64,000 nt of DNA. Source: Ianthella basta. Taxonomy: Eukaryota; Porifera; Demospongiae; Verongiida; Ianthellidae. Both the position numbers and the translations under genes were made by a program. The notes beneath the pieces are model-generated. The model saw only the letters and a list, made by a program, of their open reading frames with translations. It ran no database searches and was not told where the DNA came from. Every line of letters begins with the position of its first letter. Position 1 is the first letter of the stretch. This document shows positions 3,621-57,200 of the stretch, piece by piece. The stretch lies in assembly GCA_964019415.1 (NCBI GenBank), contig OZ025880.1, positions 1,613,313 to 1,677,312 on the forward strand, in the 5' to 3' direction.

Positions 3621-4732
3621 GGGTTTCCACCTTCTTGCAGACCCCTTGAGTGTTGTCCCATCCTTCCACCAATTGCAATTGTGTGCCAAACAACACTAGC
3701 ACCGTCGATCCCACCCCTCCTACCTTTAACATTGTCCTTTGAGTTTTCTTTGGTTGCTTTTCTGCGTTTATACTTATTTCCTATTTCCTTTTGAAATTTC
3801 TTGTCCTTTAATTAAAATTACACCTCAGTTCACAATACAGATCAAAATCCTTTACCATTATGAATACAAGTCTCTCTAAATTTTCATCTTGTCTAGCTGT
3901 ATGGACCTGGGGACCCTCTTAGGGTTTGGGCCCGTCCCCTAGGGGTAATCTAGGAGGAAAGGTATAGTCAGAAATAGGAGATTAGGATCAAAGGACATGG
4001 GCAGGCCTAGCCAAGTACCAACAGTACATAGCTAGCTAGAAGCTGGCTTCCTGGTCTTTGTATAGGGGTGTAGTCATGGGTACATGGAAGCAGGACTCTT
4101 TGGAGTCCTGCAAGGCTAGGCTGAACGGAGAGGTAAGGCTTTAACTATTGTTGCAGACTGCACAAGTTGATGTATTAGACTTGACCTGACCCTTCCATGC
4201 GCCGAGGGGTCACGCAAAAACTCACTATGTACTGTGCTGATCATGAGTGGCATGGAGTTGTGCCAAGTTAACATGATGATATTGTATGCAACTTGCATGT
4301 GCCACAAACCATGCATGCAAGTGCGGTTTAGGCAATGTAATTATTTTACTATAATTCATCGATTCTCTGTTTGTTTGTGTTTGTTTGTCGCTTAAAAAAT
4401 CTGCACTGCTCAAGGGGCCACCATGAAATTCTCCATATACTGGTTGCAATGGGCTGGGATACCCACCATGCATGCAGTAAAATAGACAAGCCATGCATAA
4501 TATGACTAGCTATAGTCAGCGTATGACTGTATAGATAGCGCACATGCGGCTAGTTGGGGCACTGCAGCTGGCATCAGAACATAGTATAATGTATAATATG
4601 GTAGCTGCATCATAAAATCATGCCATCAATCCACATTAAACAGCAAAACATTAAATGGAGAGTATAATAATCGTACAAACAGAATAATGTCAAATTAAGT
4701 AATAACGCAAAATCAATGTTTAGTACATTAAC

Positions 4733-7048
4733 TCAATATACCTGGACACACAAACTACTCCAGCATGCAACAAGTAAGTCTCCTCTTACATCTACTGCCA
4801 GTCCTACAGGTTTTTTAGCACAAGGAAAAGATGATACCAATGTCCCATCTTGGTCGAATATGGCAACACGATGGTTGTCATGGTCTGCCACCAACACATG
4901 TTTGTCATTACTCAGTTGCAGTTGGAGTTGACGGTTGAGTTGTCCTTTACCAAACTCCCTGATGTACACCCCCTGGAGAGTGAGTACTTGAACTCGGCCA
5001 TTTAATTGATCGGAGACATACAACTCTCCATCAGGCAAGACAGCCACACCAGTTGGACCACTGAATTGTCCTGGACCACTGCCTTGTGACCCAATGGTGC
5101 GAACAAACTGACCATCTTCACTGAAGACTAGCACACGATTGTTGCCAGTGTCTGCTACATAAACCTCTCCATTGTATACAGTTACATCCCAGGGAGTAGC
5201 AAATGCTCTACAACCAATTCGTCTCACGAATGCTCCATCAGTGGTCATCACATCAACTCCATTGTTATTGGCAACATACAGAAGGCCTTCTGCAGAGATG
5301 GCAACACTCATTGGGCTCCGGAGCTGACCATTCCCTGCTCCTTGTTGGCCAAAGCACTTGACGTACTTCCTCGCAGCATCAAACACATGGATTTTGTGAT
5401 GGCTGTAGTCTGATACAAATATGCAACCATTGTGTGCGACAGCCACACCCCCAAGACTGCCTGGTTGCTGAGAGAATTGAAGAGTCCCCCTACAAGCACA
5501 CAGTGTTTTGACGTCCCTCGTCAGCAATCGCACATCAGTCACTGAGTGGAGTTCCACCACAAATGGACTGCCCCGGATGTGAACCCCATTCACTAGCACT
5601 GACAGCTCACACTCTCCAGTGTATGTGAGGTCAAAGGTCACCTTGTACTGACCATTCTCCTCATCATTGACGGCTGCCTTGATGGACGGTCCTGGGATTG
5701 GAGGTCTGGGGCGGAGGAAAGCCTGAACACTCTCCCCACCAACGCTGCAGGGGGTCTTCTCACCGTCGGCTGTGGTCAGTGTGAACACAATGGGATCATT
5801 GACCGAGCACCAGTGAACCTTGTCTGGTGCTGGCTCCAGAGTGCTGTTAGCTGGACACGCCCCCACCTCAACACACGCAAACCCTTCAATGGCCGCCTGC
5901 AGTGCTGCCTCGTGCTTTGGCAGAAACTTCATCACACGTGACATAACAGCTCCACTCCTGCGGTGTGGCTGTCCTGCATCCACCACCCTGCGGTAGGAGA
6001 TGACCTCGTGTGGACTGCCCTCAGTTGAGAGAAAGGACAGCATTGCCTGCTTGTTGCTCAGGGTGTCTTCCTTGTGACGATGCAAGTGAATGGTGTCAGC
6101 GACGTTTCCTTTCCTGGTCTCTGACACAGACCTGATCTTGTCACAAAGTTGCTCCTCACGGCGGTCCAGCATGGCACGATAGGCTTGAAATGATTGTCGA
6201 GTATCTCGAAGTGCTTCCTCTCTCTTCCTCTCCACCTCAGTGCCCCACCTTTCTGCTGTCTCCCGGGCAACCCTGCACTGTTCCTTGTCACAAGCGGTAA
6301 CCTTCTGAGCCAGCTCCATTGCATGTTGGTGCTGAGGGGGGAGGGGCACCTCTGCACTGAGGTAGGCGGGGCAGTGGGGGGAGTCCTTGGACACAGTGCA
6401 GGCTTGGCACATTAGGAGGTCACACACTTCACAGTGGTACTTGAACATCTCCCCTTTGTGACGAGGGCAGTGCAGGGGAACTGCCTTGCAAAGGTGAGCT
6501 GCATCACACTCTTCACTTCCTGAGCGAATAGCTTCTACAGACTTCACATCATGCTTGCCTGTCACGCTCTCCATCCATTTGTGGCTTATTTCACAAGTGT
6601 TACAATAAAAGAAGCCACAAGTGGAGCAGAAAACGTTTGCTTCACCCCCTGGAGCATTGCACTGTGGATGCCCACAGGCGATTCTTTCTTCACCGGCCAC
6701 CTTCCGTACGATCTTCCTGCCTTCCACGTACCTGCCAACAGTGGCGCACTGCACAGGGACGCACTCTCTCGCCCTCTTCTCGCAGCGGGGAAGGTCGACG
6801 ACGTCAGGCTGCCGCCAAGTGGTGGAGCAGTCTCCGCAGTTCGGAGCGGGACACTTCAGACGGCCGTCTTCCCTGACCGCCTTAGGAAGACACTCCCTGC
6901 AGACACAGTGAAGGCAGGCCAACAGGTGAGGGTCCTTCAGTTCTCCGCCACATTGGACGCACGTCACCGGCGGCTCCCACTGGGACGGGGCTGGAGAAGA
7001 TCTAGAGACGGTCTTCGGCTTCGAAACTTCTTCAGGAGGGGAGGCCAT
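4733..7048 (-). CDS. TRIM-NHL protein, copy 1 (intact, 771 aa)
   Basis: Single-exon gene for a TRIM-NHL family protein, expected to act as a RING E3 ubiquitin ligase with an RNA- or protein-binding propeller. Domain order: RING at residues 30-74 (C30, C33, C45, H47, C50, C53, C66, C71); cysteine-rich B-box1-like region 125-167; B-box2 194-225; coiled coil about 236-345; filamin/Ig-like domain 418-500; six NHL blades 528-771. I chose the ATG at 7048 (start MASPPE) because it is shared by all complete copies. The frame stays open another 72 codons upstream, but that extension is not conserved and matches the 5' flank of other copies. No introns, frameshifts or lost zinc ligands are seen. Of the known TRIM-NHL groups it resembles the filamin-containing TRIM2/3/71 type. 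The RNA-binding role is inferred from the family. Confidence 0.93.
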   Translation of the reverse strand: MASPPEEVSKPKTVSRSSPAPSQWEPPVTCVQCGGELKDPHLLACLHCVCRECLPKAVREDGRLKCPAPNCGDCSTTWRQPDVVDLPRCEKRARECVPVQCATVGRYVEGRKIVRKVAGEERIACGHPQCNAPGGEANVFCSTCGFFYCNTCEISHKWMESVTGKHDVKSVEAIRSGSEECDAAHLCKAVPLHCPRHKGEMFKYHCEVCDLLMCQACTVSKDSPHCPAYLSAEVPLPPQHQHAMELAQKVTACDKEQCRVARETAERWGTEVERKREEALRDTRQSFQAYRAMLDRREEQLCDKIRSVSETRKGNVADTIHLHRHKEDTLSNKQAMLSFLSTEGSPHEVISYRRVVDAGQPHRRSGAVMSRVMKFLPKHEAALQAAIEGFACVEVGACPANSTLEPAPDKVHWCSVNDPIVFTLTTADGEKTPCSVGGESVQAFLRPRPPIPGPSIKAAVNDEENGQYKVTFDLTYTGECELSVLVNGVHIRGSPFVVELHSVTDVRLLTRDVKTLCACRGTLQFSQQPGSLGGVAVAHNGCIFVSDYSHHKIHVFDAARKYVKCFGQQGAGNGQLRSPMSVAISAEGLLYVANNNGVDVMTTDGAFVRRIGCRAFATPWDVTVYNGEVYVADTGNNRVLVFSEDGQFVRTIGSQGSGPGQFSGPTGVAVLPDGELYVSDQLNGRVQVLTLQGVYIREFGKGQLNRQLQLQLSNDKHVLVADHDNHRVAIFDQDGTLVSSFPCAKKPVGLAVDVRGDLLVACWSSLCVQVY

Positions 7049-15545: not shown

Positions 15546-16594
15546 ACCTTCTGCAGACCCCTTGAGCGTTGTCCCATCCTCCCACCAATTGCAATTGTGC
15601 GCCAAACAACACTAGCACCCTCCCACCCCTCCTGCCTTTAGCATTGTCCTTTTGAGTTTTCTTTGGTTGTTTTCCTGTGTTTACTTATTTCCTTTTTCCT
15701 TTTCTTGTCCTTTAAAATTACACCTCAGTTCACAATACAGATCAAAATCTTTTACCACTATGAATACAAGTCTCTCTAGATTTCATTGTGTCTATGTAGC
15801 TGTATGGACTTGGGGACCCTCTTAGGGGTTTGGCCCGTCCCCCAGGGGTAATCTAGGAGGAAAAGTAGTCGGAAACAGGAGAAAGGGGGACCTCTGAGGT
15901 TAGGATCAAAGATCATAGGCAATAGGTCAAAGGTCATGTGGGACGGGCCCAGCCCACTTAAGACCAAGCCAGGGTACCAACAGTGTATAGCTAGCTAGAA
16001 GTTGGCTTCCTGGTCTCCATATAGGGGTGTAGTCACGGGTAAATGGAAGCAGGATTCTTTGGAGTCCTGCAAGGCTAAGCTGAACGGGAGAGGTAAGTCA
16101 TTAACTATTGTTGCAGACTGCACAAGTTGATGTATTAGACTTGACCTGACCCTTCCGTGCGTGGAGGGGTCACGTGATGCCTGACTATGTACTGTGCTGA
16201 TCATGAGTGGCATGGAGTTGTGCCAAGTTAATAACATGATGACATTGTATGCAATGCAAATGTTCACTTGCATGCATGGAACAAACCATGCATGCAAGTG
16301 CGGTTTCAGGCAATGTAATTATATCTTACTATATATAATGCATCAATTCTCTGTTTGTTTATTTGTCTGTTTGTCGCCTAAAAATCTACACCGCTCAAGG
16401 GGCCATCATGAGCTTCTCAATAATTATACTGGCTGCAATGGGCCGGGATACCCACCAGTAAACTAGACAAGCCATAGTCAGCGTATGACTGTATATATTA
16501 TAGCTAGTGCATGCCTATTATAGTTGGGGCACTGCACAGCTGGCATCAGAACATAGCATAATGTATATTATGGTAGCTGCATCATAAAATCATG

Positions 16595-16950
16595 AACAAG
16601 GGTTAATCACTGGATATTACGCCTACCAGCCTTCTACACCGAAGTGTTTCAGGAGGCTGGGGGCCGGAGCCCTATTGATGGCAACCAGTGATCGCCCTCC
16701 CCCATTACTAGTCATCCTACAAAGATGGAAGAGCCACAGACAGCTGTTTCGCCCTGATTGGGGCTCATCAGTGTGGCGTACTGATGGAATGCAGGATGAC
16801 TAGTCACTCTTGTATCCCCCACCAGTGAAACACTTGTGGTTTCAACAAGAGTGAATATTAATGGGGGAAGGCTAAGTCATGAGCGTGACTTGCGCGGGAT
16901 TGTTGAGAGGTTGGTTCATTGCAGTAAGCCACTGCAATGAACCAACCTCT
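16595..16950 (-). mobile_element. Hammerhead-ribozyme-bearing insertion with 15-bp target duplication
   Basis: A 356-bp insertion flanked by direct repeats CATCATAAAATCATG (16580-16594 and 16951-16965). The paralogous segment has this site once, uninterrupted, at 4608-4622, which proves insertion. On the minus strand it contains a complete hammerhead ribozyme (16733-16777). One end is a perfect 20-bp stem (16905-16924 with 16932-16951) around a 7-nt loop. A related element lies at 31021-31317. Size, target duplication and ribozyme fit a short non-autonomous retroelement of the Penelope/retrozyme type, but no ORF is present to confirm this. Confidence 0.8.
16733..16777 (-). ncRNA. Type I hammerhead self-cleaving ribozyme (minimal helix III)
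   Basis: Read on the minus strand it has the full hammerhead core. Helix I is GCCACA paired with UGUGGC (6 bp perfect). Then comes CUGAUGA, helix II GCCC/GGGC (4 bp) with loop CAAUCA, the GAA box, helix III AC/GU with loop AGCU, and the cleavage triplet GUC. All invariant core positions are present. The 2-bp helix III is the form known from Penelope-like elements and animal retrozymes, where cleavage is often aided by dimers. Self-cleavage would occur just after GUC. Activity is predicted, not shown. Confidence 0.88.
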
Positions 16951-17081
16951 CATCATAAAATCATGCCATCAATATTTAATCCACATTAAACAGCAACAAA
17001 TTAAGAGAGAGTATAATAATTGTACAAGCAGAAAAAATTCAAATAAGCAATAATGCAAAAATCATTGTTTGGTTAAATAAC

Positions 17082-22429: not shown

Positions 22430-22870
22430 AGAACTGGGTGAGGGGAACTTGGGGACAAGTGGGGGTAGGGGACAGGTTGGTGAGACAGTGGAGGGACAAG
22501 GGGACAGGAGGACAGGTGAGGGGGACAGGTAAGGGGGACAGGTGGGGGACGGGTGGAGGGAACAGGGGGACAGGTGAGGGGACAGAGGGGACAGATGAGT
22601 GGGACATGTGGGGACAGGTGGGGAGACAGGTGGGGGGACAGGTGGGGAGACAGGGGGACAGGTGAGGGAACAGGTGGGGGGACAGGTAGGGGCACAGGTG
22701 GGGAGAAAGGTGGGGGACTGGTAGGGGAACAGGATTGGGGGACAGGTGGGGGGACAGGTGAGGGGGACAGTGTGTGGGAAAGGGGACAGTTGTGTGGGAA
22801 GTGGGACAGGTGTGTGGGAAGGGGGACAGGTGAAGGGGGCAGGTGAGGGGGACAGGTGGGGGAGGGACAG
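22430..22870. repeat. G-rich intronic minisatellite
   Basis: Degenerate repeats of GGGGACAGGTGGG on the plus strand within the intron between mannosidase exons at 22885 and 22376. The paralogous intron at 55349-56618 carries a much longer version. Runs of four or more G at short spacing could form G-quadruplexes. The long frames read across it are artefacts. Confidence 0.9.
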
Positions 22871-31020: not shown

Positions 31021-31317
31021 CCACCAGTGCCACCAGTGAAACACTTGTGCATGGCTTCAACAAGAGCGAATACAAGATGGATACAAGAGTGACTAGTCAT
31101 ACTGCATTCCATCAGTATGTCACACTGATGAGTCCCAATCAAGGCGAAACAGCTGTTGTGGCTCTTCCATCTTTGTAGGATGACTAGTAATGGGGGAGGG
31201 CGATCACTGGTTGCCATCAATAGGGCTCTGGCCCCCCAGCCTCCTGAAACACTTTGGTGTAGAAGGCTGGCAGGCGTAATATCCAGTGATTACCCCTTGT
31301 TCAATGTATGTAAGTAC
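31021..31317 (+). mobile_element. Diverged relative of the hammerhead-bearing element
   Basis: About 250 bp match the element at 16595-16950 in opposite orientation (GAGTGACTAGTCAT, CTTCCATCTTTGTAGGATGA, GTAATGGGGGAGGGCGATC). The leading 40 bp (ACCAGTGAAACACTTGTG...) are inverted relative to that copy, so the two copies are internally rearranged. It interrupts the mannosidase flank after GAACTGGCCCAC. Confidence 0.7.
31119..31162 (+). ncRNA. Degenerate hammerhead ribozyme
   Basis: It retains CUGAUGA, a weakened helix II (GUCC/AGGC with a C-A mismatch and a G-U pair), GAAAC and loop AGCU. The cytosine of the GUC cleavage triplet is missing and helix I has a mismatch (GUCACA against UGUGGC). 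Self-cleavage is unlikely. Confidence 0.65.
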
Positions 31318-37379: not shown

Positions 37380-37900
37380 GAACACTGCTGTCCCCCCACT
37401 TGTAACATCCACCTGTCCCCACACCTACTCCTCCACCTGCCCCCCGTCCCCCACCTGTCCCCACACCTACTCCCCCACCTGTCCCCACACCTACTCTCCC
37501 ACCTGCCCCCGTCCCTCACCTGTCCCCACACCTACTCTCCCACCTGCCCCCCATCCCTCACCTGTCCCCACACCTACTCTCCCACCTGCCCCCCGTCCCT
37601 CACCTGTCCCCACACCTACTCCCCCACCTGCCCCCCGTCCCTCACCTGTCCCCACACCTATTCCCCCACCTGCCCCCCGTCCCCCACCTGTCCCCACACC
37701 TACTCCCCCACCTGCCCCCCGTCCCCCACCTGTCCCCACACCTACTCCCCCACCTGTCCCCACACCTACTCCCCCGCCTGCCCCCGTCCCTCACCTGTCC
37801 CCACACCTATTCCCCCACCTGTCCCCCGTCCCCCACCTGTCCCCACACCTACCCCCCCACCTGCCCCCCATCCCTCACCTGTCCCCACACCTATATAATA
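37380..37900. repeat. 42-bp C-rich minisatellite (VNTR)
   Basis: About twelve tandem copies of a 42-bp unit built from CCCCCACCTGTCCCCACACC and TACTCCCCCACCTGCCCCCCGT. Because 42 is a multiple of three, the repeat stays open in frame and mimics a Cys-Pro-Thr-rich protein. I do not consider it a gene. Confidence 0.92.
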
Positions 37901-41705: not shown

Positions 41706-42264
41706 GGTATCTTTGGGCCGATTCCTTGGTTCTCGCCATCACAAATAATTCTGGCCAATCAGATGGCTGTTTGGTCACGTGTCTACCGGAAACCACGCAC
41801 GAACCTCGTACGCGAAGCTGAATAGGGAGGAGTCTCAAGGTGTGAGCATTCTTTCTTGGATTATGGATAGTCCACGATTGGAATCCAGTTCTGTGGCATA
41901 TGCAGGATCCACAAAAGAACGTTTGAGAGTCATCTCCTATATCCTCGCGTACGAGGCTCACGCGTGGTTTCGTAAGCACGTGATCAAGCGGCGATCTGAT
42001 TGGCCAAAAGTATTCGAGATGCGTCGAGGCGAGCCAAGGAATGGGCCCAAAGATACCAGACCACCTAGTCTGGAGACCAGACCCTAAGCGCCCCTGCGCA
42101 AAATTAGGGTCTGGTGCAACTCGTATTCGGAAGTTGTGCAGGGATTTGAGATCCCGGCGCCTCCAATCAGATTTCAGAACGCGCGAAATGCGGCGAAAGA
42201 CGGATAATATCTGGCGCGAATATGGGAATTTTGGTGCGCTAACGTCGAAGATAACATGAAGAAC

Positions 42265-42528
42265 GAATTTGGTAAATAGTTTCTCCCATAAACTGTTTCT
42301 CACACGCTCTACTTCTTCGCTTAGTCGCAGATACTTTTCAGTTTCCGCGAAGCAGGATCTGCAAACAAAGGCGCGTTGCGCGTGTTCGTCACCAAGAAGA
42401 GTCGCTGTGGATCCTGAAGCGGCTTGGAGTTCCTGGAGACACCTCAGCACACGTTCAGACGAGATCAATGCCAATAATCTCCGTTCTTTAGAGCCAACTG
42501 CTTTCTCACAAAGCTTGCAATATTCCAT
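42265..42528 (-). CDS. Short zinc-finger-like frame in element E
   Basis: An ATG at 42528 opens about 88 codons: EYCKLC near the start and FVCRSC about 55 residues later (two CxxC pairs), then a charged, helix-prone LRLSEEVERVRNSL. This layout resembles N-terminal zinc-binding modules seen in many transposon-derived proteins. The frame runs on into the inverted arm without a real domain. It may be an exon of a lost transposase or a captured host exon. Confidence 0.35.
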
Positions 42529-42693
42529 TAGACGCTAAACTCGTTCTTCATGTTATCTTCGACGTTAGCGCACCAAAATTCCCATATTCGCGCCAGATAT
42601 TATCCGTCTTTCGCCGCATTTCGCGCGTTCTGTAATCTGATTGGAGGCGCCGGAATCTCAAATCCCTGCACAACTTCCGAGTACGAGTTGTAC

Positions 42694-43416
42694 TAGTCTG
42701 GCGCGCTAGCCCCTACTTCCGGCCCCCCATTGCGCGTGGGCAGGGAAGGTTGGGTCTAGCAACTATTGTCAATTTCACACCTTGCGCAATTGTCGCCGAT
42801 GGCGTTTACTGGAGAAGTCGTACAAACGGGTGTGTAGCGATCGCTGGTGTGCTTAAACGACTTCGATGAAGGGAAAGAATACATGAATGGTGCGGGAATT
42901 AGCCTCCAGTCACTTCCCAACAACATGCTGCGTCTGCGCTGCCGTCCAAGTGCCGCACAATGGGAGAAGGGTCTCTAAGGCGCTCGAGTTCACCGCTCTC
43001 GGACAGAAGCTGGACGAAATAAGTCAGATTTCGATAGATTAGCGATTTCCCGTATCCTGTTGGGAGACTCACGAAAGTGTCTCTGCCGCGGAGCAGTTCT
43101 ACGAAGGCGCGGTGCTTATCTGGTTTTAGGTTTGCGAAGCCCACTGTCCGCGCTGCCGTGCTCATGCACTCGTCCAGGACCGCGGGTTCCGTGGATTGTA
43201 GCAAGGACTGAAGCGAGCGTTCTGTAGACATCTTCGCACATTCACCTTCGATAGACGCCCGCGGAGCGGCAAGCAGGAATAATTGGCGGTGCGATTTCGG
43301 TTGCCAGCGATTTCATTGGTCGAACCGAGGTGTGAAATTGACAATAGTTGCTAGACCCTACCTTCCCAGCCCACGCGCAATCGGGGGCCGGAAGTAGGGG
43401 CTAGCGCGCCAGACTA
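42694..43416. mobile_element. TAGTCTGG element C carrying a helicase fragment, nested in E
   Basis: Inverted termini of about 92 bp start TAGTCTGGCGCGCTAGCCCC and run to TTGTCAATTTCACACC. Exact 9-bp repeats GAGTTGTAC flank it (42685-42693, 43417-43425). It carries a RecQ-like frame at 42899-43231. Third nesting level. Confidence 0.9.
42899..43231 (-). CDS. RecQ-type helicase N-terminal fragment in element C
   Basis: A 110-codon frame from an ATG at 43231. Residues 35-60 read LKPDKHRAFVELLRGRDTFV followed by SLPTGYGKSLIY, which is the motif 0 plus Walker A (motif I) pattern of RecQ-family DNA helicases. Motifs Ia-VI are absent, and the frame ends in the element. It may be the first exon of a longer helicase trapped in the element. 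It cannot be an active helicase alone. Confidence 0.6.
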   Translation of the reverse strand: MSTERSLQSLLQSTEPAVLDECMSTAARTVGFANLKPDKHRAFVELLRGRDTFVSLPTGYGKSLIYRNLTYFVQLLSESGELERLRDPSPIVRHLDGSADAACCWEVTGG

Positions 43417-43942
43417 GAGTTGTACCAGACCCTAATTTTGCGCGGGGGGCGCTTAGGGTCTGGTCTCTAGACTACAGACCACCTTTTCGCGGCCATTTTG
43501 TTAGCGGAAGTGGTGGGCTGGGAACGAGACTAGTTTCAGCCCTTGTAGTGTTACAGTCTGGATGCCCACAAGCGATTCTTTCTCCGCTGACCACTTTCCG
43601 TACGATCTTCCTGCCTTCCACGTACCTGCCGACAGCGGCGCACTGTACGGGGACGCACTCTCTCGCCCTCTCCTCGCAGCGGGGAAGGGCGACGACGTCG
43701 AGCTGCGGCCAAGCGGTGGAGCAGTCTCCGCAGTTCGGAGCGGGACACTTCAGACAGCCGTCTTCCCTTACCGCCTTAGGAAGACACTCCCTGCAGAGAC
43801 AGTGAAGGCAGGCCAACAGGTGAGGGTCCTTCAGCTCTCCGCCACATTGGACGCACGTCACCGGCGGCTCCCACTGGGACGGGGCTGGAGGAGATCTAGA
43901 GATGGTCTTCGGCTTGGAAGCGCCTTCAGGAGGGGAGGCCAT

Positions 43943-54212: not shown

Positions 54213-57200
54213 CATTGCTGAAGAAACCAATCCTGACCGGATCTTGCATGACACAGGGATCATTGCCTCGAGCATCATTCAGAAGAGGGAGCCTCCTACA
54301 TATAGACACACATGGAGAACAAGAACACAGTCATTATTAAATGCTTATCCTTCACAGTGGCTCCATGGACTGCAGTACACTTGCCTGTGTGCCAAATACT
54401 CCATCGATCCATTCCTCCCCACAACTCCAACCGGCCTACGAGTGGAGACCATCAACTCTTTCTTGGTGTCATTGATAGATGCCTTAAGCACAAGAGGATA
54501 CACATTTCCCTGGAATGGTGTGCTGGCATTGAATACTCGGTTCTGTGAAAAAGTTAAATACACTCATAAATGATTGTACTGTACGTACACATACGTAATA
54601 AAACTTGAATCCATAAATGATGAAGCCAAAGAACAATGGAGATAGAGTAGAACCTGTCTAAAATGGTCACTATGTAAGCCAGTCAATTCTCTACAACAGC
54701 CAGCCTCCCTGGCCACAAATAGTACAGAAGCATTACAATCTACCTCTGTAACGCAGCTACCTCTCTATAAAGGTCAGTTAGAACTGGCCCACAGGTGGTT
54801 GTCTTAGACAGGTTCCACTGTATCATCTGACGTGTGACGAAGACACATGAACATACCATGCTGCATATATAGCAGATGACAGTAGCTGCAATGGCCACAG
54901 CGAAACCTATTACATATCTTGCATGTGTGTATGAACTCACCATTGAAAAGTACCCTTGTGAGTATGTTGTCATTTGGTCCTCGTGCAGGATGTCGGTCCC
55001 AAATTTGAATGTGACTGAGAATGGGACTGTCTCAGGAAAAGGGCCAATTCTGAATGGGTGAACATGTCCATCATATCACTCATCATTTGAGGAATACATC
55101 GTACACTCAATAATATAACAACATGCATGATGTGCGTCATGTTTGCATACTGCTGTATGTTTAACAAACAGGTACGCTATATGTAGACTGTACAGTAACT
55201 GTAGAGTGTTGTGTGGAGTTGAGCTTTGTGTGCATTGCAAATATAGGTTCTTGCAGGCTAACCTTGTCTGCCATTCCACAGTCTGTGAGAGCAAATCAGT
55301 CTTTGTTTTGTCCACTGGAACAAACAGCCGAATGGAGTGGTTGATGTACTAGTTGGGATACAAGTGGGAGAGGTGATCACTGCCAATAGTGGGGGACAGG
55401 GGGAACTGGGTGAGGGGAACTTGGGAACAAGTGGGGGTAGGGGACAGGTTGGTGAGACAATGGAGGGACAGGGGGGCAGGTGGGGGGACAAGTGGGGGAC
55501 AGATGGAGGGGACAGGTGGAGGGACAGGTGGAGGGAGACTAGGGGACAGGTGAGGGGACAGGTGGGAGGACAGGTGGGACAGATGGGGGGACAGAGGGGA
55601 CAGGTGGGGGACGGGTGAGAGGACAGGTAGGGGGACAGGTGAGGGGACAGGTGGGTGGGACAGGTGAGAGGACAGGTGGAGGGAGACATATGGAGGACGG
55701 GTGGGGGACAGGTGAGGGGACAGGTGGGGGGATGAAGGGGACAGGTGAAGGGACATGTGGGGAGACAGGGGGACAGGTGGGGGGATGGAGGGGACAGGTG
55801 AGGGGACATGTGGGGAGACAGGGAGACAGGTTGGGGGACAGGTTGGGGGATGGGTGGGGGGACAGGTGGGGGGACAGGTGGAGGGAGACATATGGAAGAC
55901 AATTGGGTGACAGGTGGGGGGACAGGTGGGGAGACAGGTGGGGGAGGGGAACAGGTGAGGATGAGAGGTGGGGGAACAGGATTGGGGGACAGTTGGGGGG
56001 ACAGGGGTGAGACAGGTGGGGGGGGGGGGGCAGGTGAGGGAAGAGATGGGGGGAAAGGTGGGGGACAGGTGGGTGGGACAGGTTGGGAGACAGGTGAGGG
56101 GACGGGTGAGGTGACAGCTAAAGACTGGTGGGGGACATGGGGACAGGTGAAGGGGACAGGTGGGGAGGATGGGCGGGGGAGGGGGACAGGTGAGGGGGAC
56201 AGGTTAGGAACAGGATTGGGGGACAGTTGGGGGGACAGGGGTGAGACAGGTGTGTGGGAAAGGGGACAGGTGGGGGAACAGGTTGGGGGCAGGTGAGGGG
56301 ATAGGTGGGGGACAGAGGGGGGGAAAAGGTGGGGGGAAGGTGGGGGGGACAGGTGGGTGGGACAGGTTGGGGGACATGTGGGGAGACAGGTTGGGTGGGG
56401 GGGACATGTGGGGGATGGGTGGGATGACAGCTGAGGACTTGTGGGGGACATGGGGAGAGGCGAAGGAGACAGGTGGGGGACAGGTGAAGAGGTAAGGCGG
56501 GGAGAGGGGGACAGGTGAGGGGGACAGTTGGGGAGACAGGTGGGGGGGAACAGGTGGGGGGACAGGTGGGGAAACAGGTGAGGGGACAGGTGGGGGAGGG
56601 ACAGGCATGCATACACACCTCATTAATCTGCTGTTCAACCTCCCAAACCAGCAGTCCTTCTGTCACAACTCTTGTACTAATGGTCTAAGAGGAGGAAAGT
56701 GATAACAATTATTAAATACTCCTTATTACATTCAGTCTGAGAGATCAGCATGCTAGGAAGTCGTGTTTGGAGACTGAAAGCTGCATAACTATTTAGTGGG
56801 GGTCAAATGTTTAGTGAGGTTCAAAAGTCCCATGCTTAACTACTAAAAATGCTTCTTTGGAAAGTTGAAAGGTACCATTATCTGTGGTGGAGGTAGCATG
56901 TGTTCACCAAAAATTAAGCTCAATTTGATGGGTAACATACAATGGAGCAATAACATGATTGACACTGTAAGATATTGAACCTCTCACATAATTCCCCTGG
57001 AAGATAATTCATTGCATTTGAAGCACAACACAAACCAGTCTGCCTATCAGTAAGTGCTTCTCACCTTTGGTGTTAGAGTCTGCGAACCTTCATCTGGTAC
57101 AAACGTGCACACATTTGTACCACCGCACACAGTGAACAGGTCCAGGAGACCCGCCTTTTCAAAGTACTGTGTAGGCGTGGCTGAAAGGGTGTGTCCCACC

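Follow-up and report, generated by a model that had tools for sequence, protein, structure and literature searches.

The metazoan non-LTR retrozymes described by Cervera and de la Pena (2020; PMC7229834) are units of 150-450 bp that lack open reading frames (ORFs) and carry type I hammerhead ribozymes, occur as tandem copies with long target duplications and form a strongly self-paired circle. They are reported to make abundant hammerhead-cut RNA circles, the enzyme that inserts them into the genome being left open in these accounts (PMC7229834, PMC7761336), and their repeats are described as showing no motif that would reveal a partner retrotransposon (PMC7761336). Plant LTR retrozymes are also non-autonomous, hammerhead-bearing and described as passing through a circular RNA intermediate (PMC4918200, PMC7229834); they carry LTRs, their hammerheads belong to type III and their duplications are 4 bp long (PMC7229834). 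Penelope-like elements (PLEs) of the Penelope/Poseidon type are described as inserted in inverted head-to-head arms, with a tail on one arm, target duplications, and two internal start sites downstream of a hammerhead (PMC11167929, PMC3846280). The "tail" of a PLE sits on one of two inverted pLTRs (PMC3846280), and the PLE protein is reported to cut both strands and extend them from two internal sites in the RNA, between which the tail lies (PMC11167929). The same study saw no difference between strands in start site and no requirement for ribozyme cleavage, and the later steps of integration are said to be unvalidated (PMC11167929).

Here we describe an element of the sponge Ianthella basta that combines features of these systems and that, by its sequence, represents a new family of retrozymes whose insertions are two-ended, as in PLEs. 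With the metazoan retrozymes it shares the size class, the lack of an ORF, the type I hammerhead, the tandem copies, the long duplications and the strongly self-paired circular fold; a hammerhead above the Rfam cutoff, a short ORF-less tandem unit and a duplication longer than 4 bp were all found. Its inverted two-armed insertions with fixed ends, which we call A and B, set it apart from the metazoan retrozymes as described in PMC7229834, a paper whose main text contains neither the word sponge nor Porifera. Plant LTR retrozymes resemble it in being non-autonomous and in having a hammerhead and a circular RNA (which for our element is inferred), and are unlike it in ribozyme type, in LTRs and in the length of their duplications. 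With PLEs it has in common the inverted arms, one-arm tail and duplication (26 of 34 loci) and a hammerhead followed by two internal start sites; unlike them it has no reverse transcriptase or endonuclease, a unit of only 365 bp, and a hammerhead with a helix III loop, so that neither the ORF nor the loopless hammerhead of PLEs was found.

The element came to attention in the window, by which we mean the whole 64,000-nucleotide stretch of DNA that was analyzed. A 356-bp insertion in minus orientation (16595..16950) is bounded there by two copies of the 15-bp target duplication CATCATAAAATCATG (16580..16594 and 16951..16965), in agreement with the earlier note, and is missing at a paralogous site (4608..4622) where CATCATAAAATCATG occurs once and is uninterrupted. 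When the flanks were joined across the insertion and aligned with positions 4241-5047, they were 79% identical to this region, which has a single duplication copy and no insert. That site had been called a proven empty site; it is indeed uninterrupted, but on sequence it is a diverged paralogue rather than an allele. The minus strand between 4733 and 52360 carries several genes with NHL/filamin repeats (seven of eight ORFs tested match NHL and Filamin in Pfam), which form a recent tandem family, and the empty site comes from the spacers of this family.

Within the insertion lies a type I hammerhead ribozyme on the minus strand (16733..16777), which reads GCCACA CUGAUGA GCCC CAAUCA GGGC GAA A CAGCUG U C UGUGGC from 16777 to 16733. 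The complete hammerhead previously claimed for this position was borne out by the sequence: helix I has 6 bp, helix II 4 bp, and helix III 2 bp (A-U and C-G) with the loop AGCU, the core is full under the hammerhead core numbering, and a GUC cleavage site is predicted between 16739 and 16738 (GUC / UGUGGC). The proposed check against the Rfam hammerhead model likewise succeeded, as Hammerhead_1 (RF00163) matched over model positions 1-45 with no broken pair marked, at 38.7 bits (E 3.1e-6; gathering score 34). Helix I is extended by a further stem, one side of which is at 16707..16721 and the other at 16790..16804 (both minus strand), as seen in the sequence and in the circular fold of the unit. 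We conclude that the hammerhead is a genuine type I ribozyme motif, and its cleavage is predicted.

Folding of the motif was less straightforward. Helix III is not formed in the predicted fold of the 45-mer alone (-17.2 kcal/mol), and the sequence ACAGCUGU in the helix III region is self-complementary; folded as two strands, the 45-mer gives a double hammerhead with an 8-bp helix III at -39.9 kcal/mol. Small PLE-linked hammerheads reportedly cut as dimers. RNAalifold, applied to 12 sequences, did not return helix I of the hammerhead and favored instead a conserved hairpin in which an upstream CAUCAG pairs with CUGAUG of the core, in a fold where five pairs change on both sides, four of them in a downstream hairpin. 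This CAUCAGU...ACUGAUG hairpin (alignment columns 62-82; about 16765-16785 of the window, minus strand) would sequester the core and is a possible off-switch, and the competing hairpin, together with the absence of helix III from the lone 45-mer fold, suggests that the ribozyme may be blocked or in need of a partner. The same hairpin speaks for the alternative that the motif is a chance hammerhead in an ordinary repeat, with no ribozyme function. We find this scarcely credible, as the 45-nt hammerhead is 94% identical among ten subfamily members compared with 64%, 82% and 70% in flanking segments, and a degenerate pattern of the core matched 338 times in the 209-Mb assembly (96 contigs) vs. 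none for the reversed control pattern.

The search for other genome copies that had been recommended yielded, in addition to these 338 core matches, at least 146 matches to the insertion as a DNA query (40 of 1033 candidates scored). The tandem period of the copies is 365 bp, and up to six whole units are present in one arm of the C7 locus. The element had been viewed as a compact member without any ORF; the latter holds, since the longest ATG ORF in the unit is 41 aa and no reverse transcriptase or GIY-YIG endonuclease ORF is present in it, but the 356-bp form is not the unit, which is the 365-bp tandem repeat. No box A match was found in the unit, box B matched only with 4 mismatches and no A/T run of six is present, so that neither a pol III promoter nor the A-rich tail of a SINE was detected. 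Folded as a circle, the unit reaches -146.0 kcal/mol compared with -108.8 for 100 shuffles (z -6.5), and in the circular ensemble helix II has a probability of about 0.92 and helix I of about 0.55. The 365-bp tandem unit probably points to an RNA circle as intermediate, although the template could be a linear multimer. GC content is 52.9% in the unit and 50.3% in the window insert, vs. below 50% in metazoan retrozymes (PMC7229834), a reported tendency to which we give no decisive weight. A candidate autonomous element, marked by three hammerhead copies 4.93 kb apart on C4, was rejected, as this 4.9-kb repeat contains no ORF above 120 aa. Six other hammerheads (L008, L012, L014, L016, L017, L018) have a longer helix III and occur singly, and a screen of their 1.5-kb flanks revealed no tandem copies of the motif; they represent a different hammerhead family of the genome.

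To describe the anatomy of the insertions we compiled 34 loci, comprising the window copy, L020-L048 as the best matches (L047 and L049 being one locus, and the pieces of C7 counted together), seven further loci, and L009 from a diverged subfamily. The sampling was non-random, since it drew on best matches, on the first-listed contig and on six loci chosen for their inverted-looking matches, the last two sources supplying the seven further loci; L050, which has two one-armed inserts, and the loci of other subfamilies were left out. Two head-to-head arms in opposite orientation were present at 26 of these loci, each arm having a 3' end of the unit as its outer end. All 26 combine a single A end (unit 359-365, ...TTGTT adjoining CA) with a single B end (unit 54-64, ...ACCTCT adjoining CA), and neither A/A nor B/B pairs occur. 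The 26 loci represent 25 target sites (L020 and L033 share one), and if ends were drawn independently and evenly A/B pairing this uniform would have a chance of one in 2 to the power 25. All of the two-armed loci except L069, which has none, are flanked by an exact duplication of 8-15 bp. The remaining eight loci (L022, L029, L030, L032, L043, L046, L053, and L060) fall outside the two-armed pattern, having one arm, filler or an unclear structure. In another subfamily, of which we classified a minority of loci, L004, L011, and L054 are by eye likewise A/B with a duplication.

The window copy conforms to this arrangement, its left end on the plus strand being the A end and its right end the B end. 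The A arm (16595..16937, minus; 98% by blastn to the 365-bp unit) runs from unit 365 back to 22 with its outer end ...CCTTGTT adjoining target CA, and the B arm (16931..16950, plus) consists of about 20 nt, unit about 34-54, with its outer end ...ACCTCT adjoining target CA. The arms join head to head in a palindromic hairpin (16906..16950, minus) with the loop GGCTT, in which 16931-16950 pairs perfectly with 16906-16925: the B arm meets the A arm within the tail hairpin TTGCAGT-GGCTT-ACTGCAA, extending it to the 20-bp stem. The earlier note was therefore right about a perfect 20-bp stem, but what it took for a terminal hairpin is, as read from the sequence, the point where a long A arm meets a very short B arm, the latter being the remnant of a second inverted arm from a second start site. 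The identical form occurs at five distinct target sites (the window, L020, L025, L026, and L031). As L033, which occupies a duplicated copy of the L020 site, carries a longer inverted array, the short form can be a collapsed longer structure. A second, decayed copy in the window (31030..31301, plus) has a minus arm at 31030-31072 and a plus arm with an A end at 31079-31301 (88% and 95% to the unit by blastn), and its hammerhead (31119-31162) scores 22.2 bits, under the Rfam cutoff.

The ends also show a preference for the adjoining dinucleotide. A ends adjoin target CA in 21 of 23 cases (three of 26 rows, being internal junctions or a mis-hit, were dropped), and B ends adjoin CA in 24 of 26 (five such rows dropped), where the CA may also come from the template. 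The preference points to a pairing of TG at the target ends with CA in the RNA; this putative pairing differs from the situation in the Anolis PLE, whose starts are described as non-homologous to the cut DNA (PMC11167929).

We next consider where the two arms come from. Divergence over the whole length is a weak test of a common template, and so we relied on informative sites, defined as the four unit positions with a second base in at least five loci. At these sites the opposite arms of one locus differ in 10 of 197 comparisons (72 of which are supplied by the C7 locus), compared with 4977 of 10412 between different loci, and repeats within a single arm differ in 13 of 187. When minus arms were reassigned among 24 loci, none of 500 permutations was as low as the observed mean (0.026 vs. 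0.45). Over all positions the contrast is weaker, with arms 2.21% apart vs. 3.44% between loci, and at L021, L069, L070, L072, and L074 the arms are no closer than those of different loci; we attribute this to later mutation. The distribution of sequence variants shows that both arms of a locus are copied off a shared template.

Shared variants are also what would be expected of snap-back self-priming, an idea put forward for inverted arms in PMC3846280, in which a single cDNA, primed by one target end at one site, folds back at its 3' end and copies itself. The arm junctions lend it something as well, since 14 of the 26 two-armed loci show a junction overlap of at least 2 nt, five of them at the tail hairpin (a count made by eye with no control). 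A folded-back arm, however, should not repeatedly stop at a second fixed site 54 nt on that adjoins the other end of the duplication, as seen in 25 of 26 loci, and the B arm of L024, which is 8 nt as read by eye, is shorter than any plausible snap-back. We regard snap-back as unlikely, and favor the priming of both target strands. Long duplications and inverted arms are also known for LINEs, and a LINE-type reverse transcriptase could be imagined to mobilize the element through L1-style twin priming. LINEs are indeed left open as partners of retrozymes in PMC7229834, but the unit has neither a poly-A nor any run of six T/A nucleotides, and we hold a LINE-driven origin to be very unlikely.

PLEs of the same genome offer a closer comparison. 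Among 84 GIY-YIG matches in the genome there are 17 divergent pairs. At L081 a single open frame (834 aa from the first ATG used) matches RVT_1 at 38.0 bits and GIY-YIG at 23.5 bits, and its protein is 37% identical over 92% to a protein of Anolis carolinensis; at L082 RVT_1 scores 40.4 bits and GIY-YIG 21.4, just below the cutoff of 22.6. All nine inverted PLE insertions examined (of the 17 pairs) have a tail on one arm and none on the other, the tails being 29-37 nt by script and 34-39 by eye and the duplications 9-15 bp. Upstream of the two ends these PLEs carry minimal hammerhead-like motifs that have no helix III loop, and the order hammerhead - A - B is common to them and the retrozyme. 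Of three PLE tails compared with the window-type tail, one has GCAATGAACC in common with it (shuffle p about 0.00025) and a second has AATGAACC (shuffle p about 0.03); the third gave nothing notable. The tail hairpin is kept in retrozyme subfamilies with differing stems (a typed alignment of five) and was not seen in the PLE tails. No cognate PLE with the same tail or pLTR was found among the GIY-YIG and PLE protein matches or by blastn of the unit against the PLE loci, and three further PLE 5' regions (L100-L102) had no notable match to the retrozyme.

As the retrozyme shares the paired-end insertion signature with PLEs of the same genome, these are the likely carriers, and the association with Penelope and retrozymes, originally a guess, gains substance. 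The common order of hammerhead, A and B might also mean that the unit is not an independent retrozyme but a solo pLTR, or an autonomous PLE reduced by internal deletion. We judge this improbable: blastn of the unit to the PLE loci read gave no match beyond 13-16 nt, the PLE hammerheads read here have no helix III loop, and the 4.9-kb repeat with its three copies encodes nothing above the 120 aa already noted.

Our preferred reading, which we consider likely, is that an ORF-less retrozyme is copied by PLE machinery onto both nicked target strands from one RNA. A more specific version, which we would back about as readily as doubt, is that one RNA circle templates both strands of a staggered break, with one start at A and one at B, and that the rolling-circle cDNAs meet head to head. 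The cycle, whose order of steps we infer, would begin with transcription of tandem copies. Hammerheads, probably paired as dimers, would cut the transcript into 365-nt monomers, which a host ligase would close into circles. A host PLE protein would then bind the RNA near the segment that separates two fixed start sites, A at unit 365/1 and B at unit about 54/55, at both of which CA is next in the RNA. Both target strands would be nicked with a stagger of about 8-15 bp, and their 3' ends, usually TG, would prime reverse transcription on the same RNA, with A serving one strand and B the other. The two cDNAs would circle the template from zero to several times before joining head to head, often through short regions of complementarity. 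The absence of a strand difference in start site and of a need for ribozyme cleavage in the PLE study, and its non-homologous starts, count against this reading (PMC11167929). If this is true, retrozymes and PLEs share an obligate two-ended, two-site rolling-circle priming, of which we found no description in the literature searched, as far as those sources were available to us. The paired-end signature is a clue to the retrozyme partner and yields exact start sites, and the strict rule of one A and one B end, together with the shared template, bears on PLE integration.

Other repeats are also present in the window. A nearly perfect loopless 43-bp palindrome at 41617-41710 matches plant and other microRNA models, all under cutoff, and these matches probably reflect the palindrome only. 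Two large inverted repeats lie next to each other at 42111-42696 and 42693-43417 (160 nt at 96% and 90 nt at 97%), and G-rich minisatellites of GGGGGACAGGTG occur in both orientations at 22510-22858, 37447-37893, and 55423-56596.
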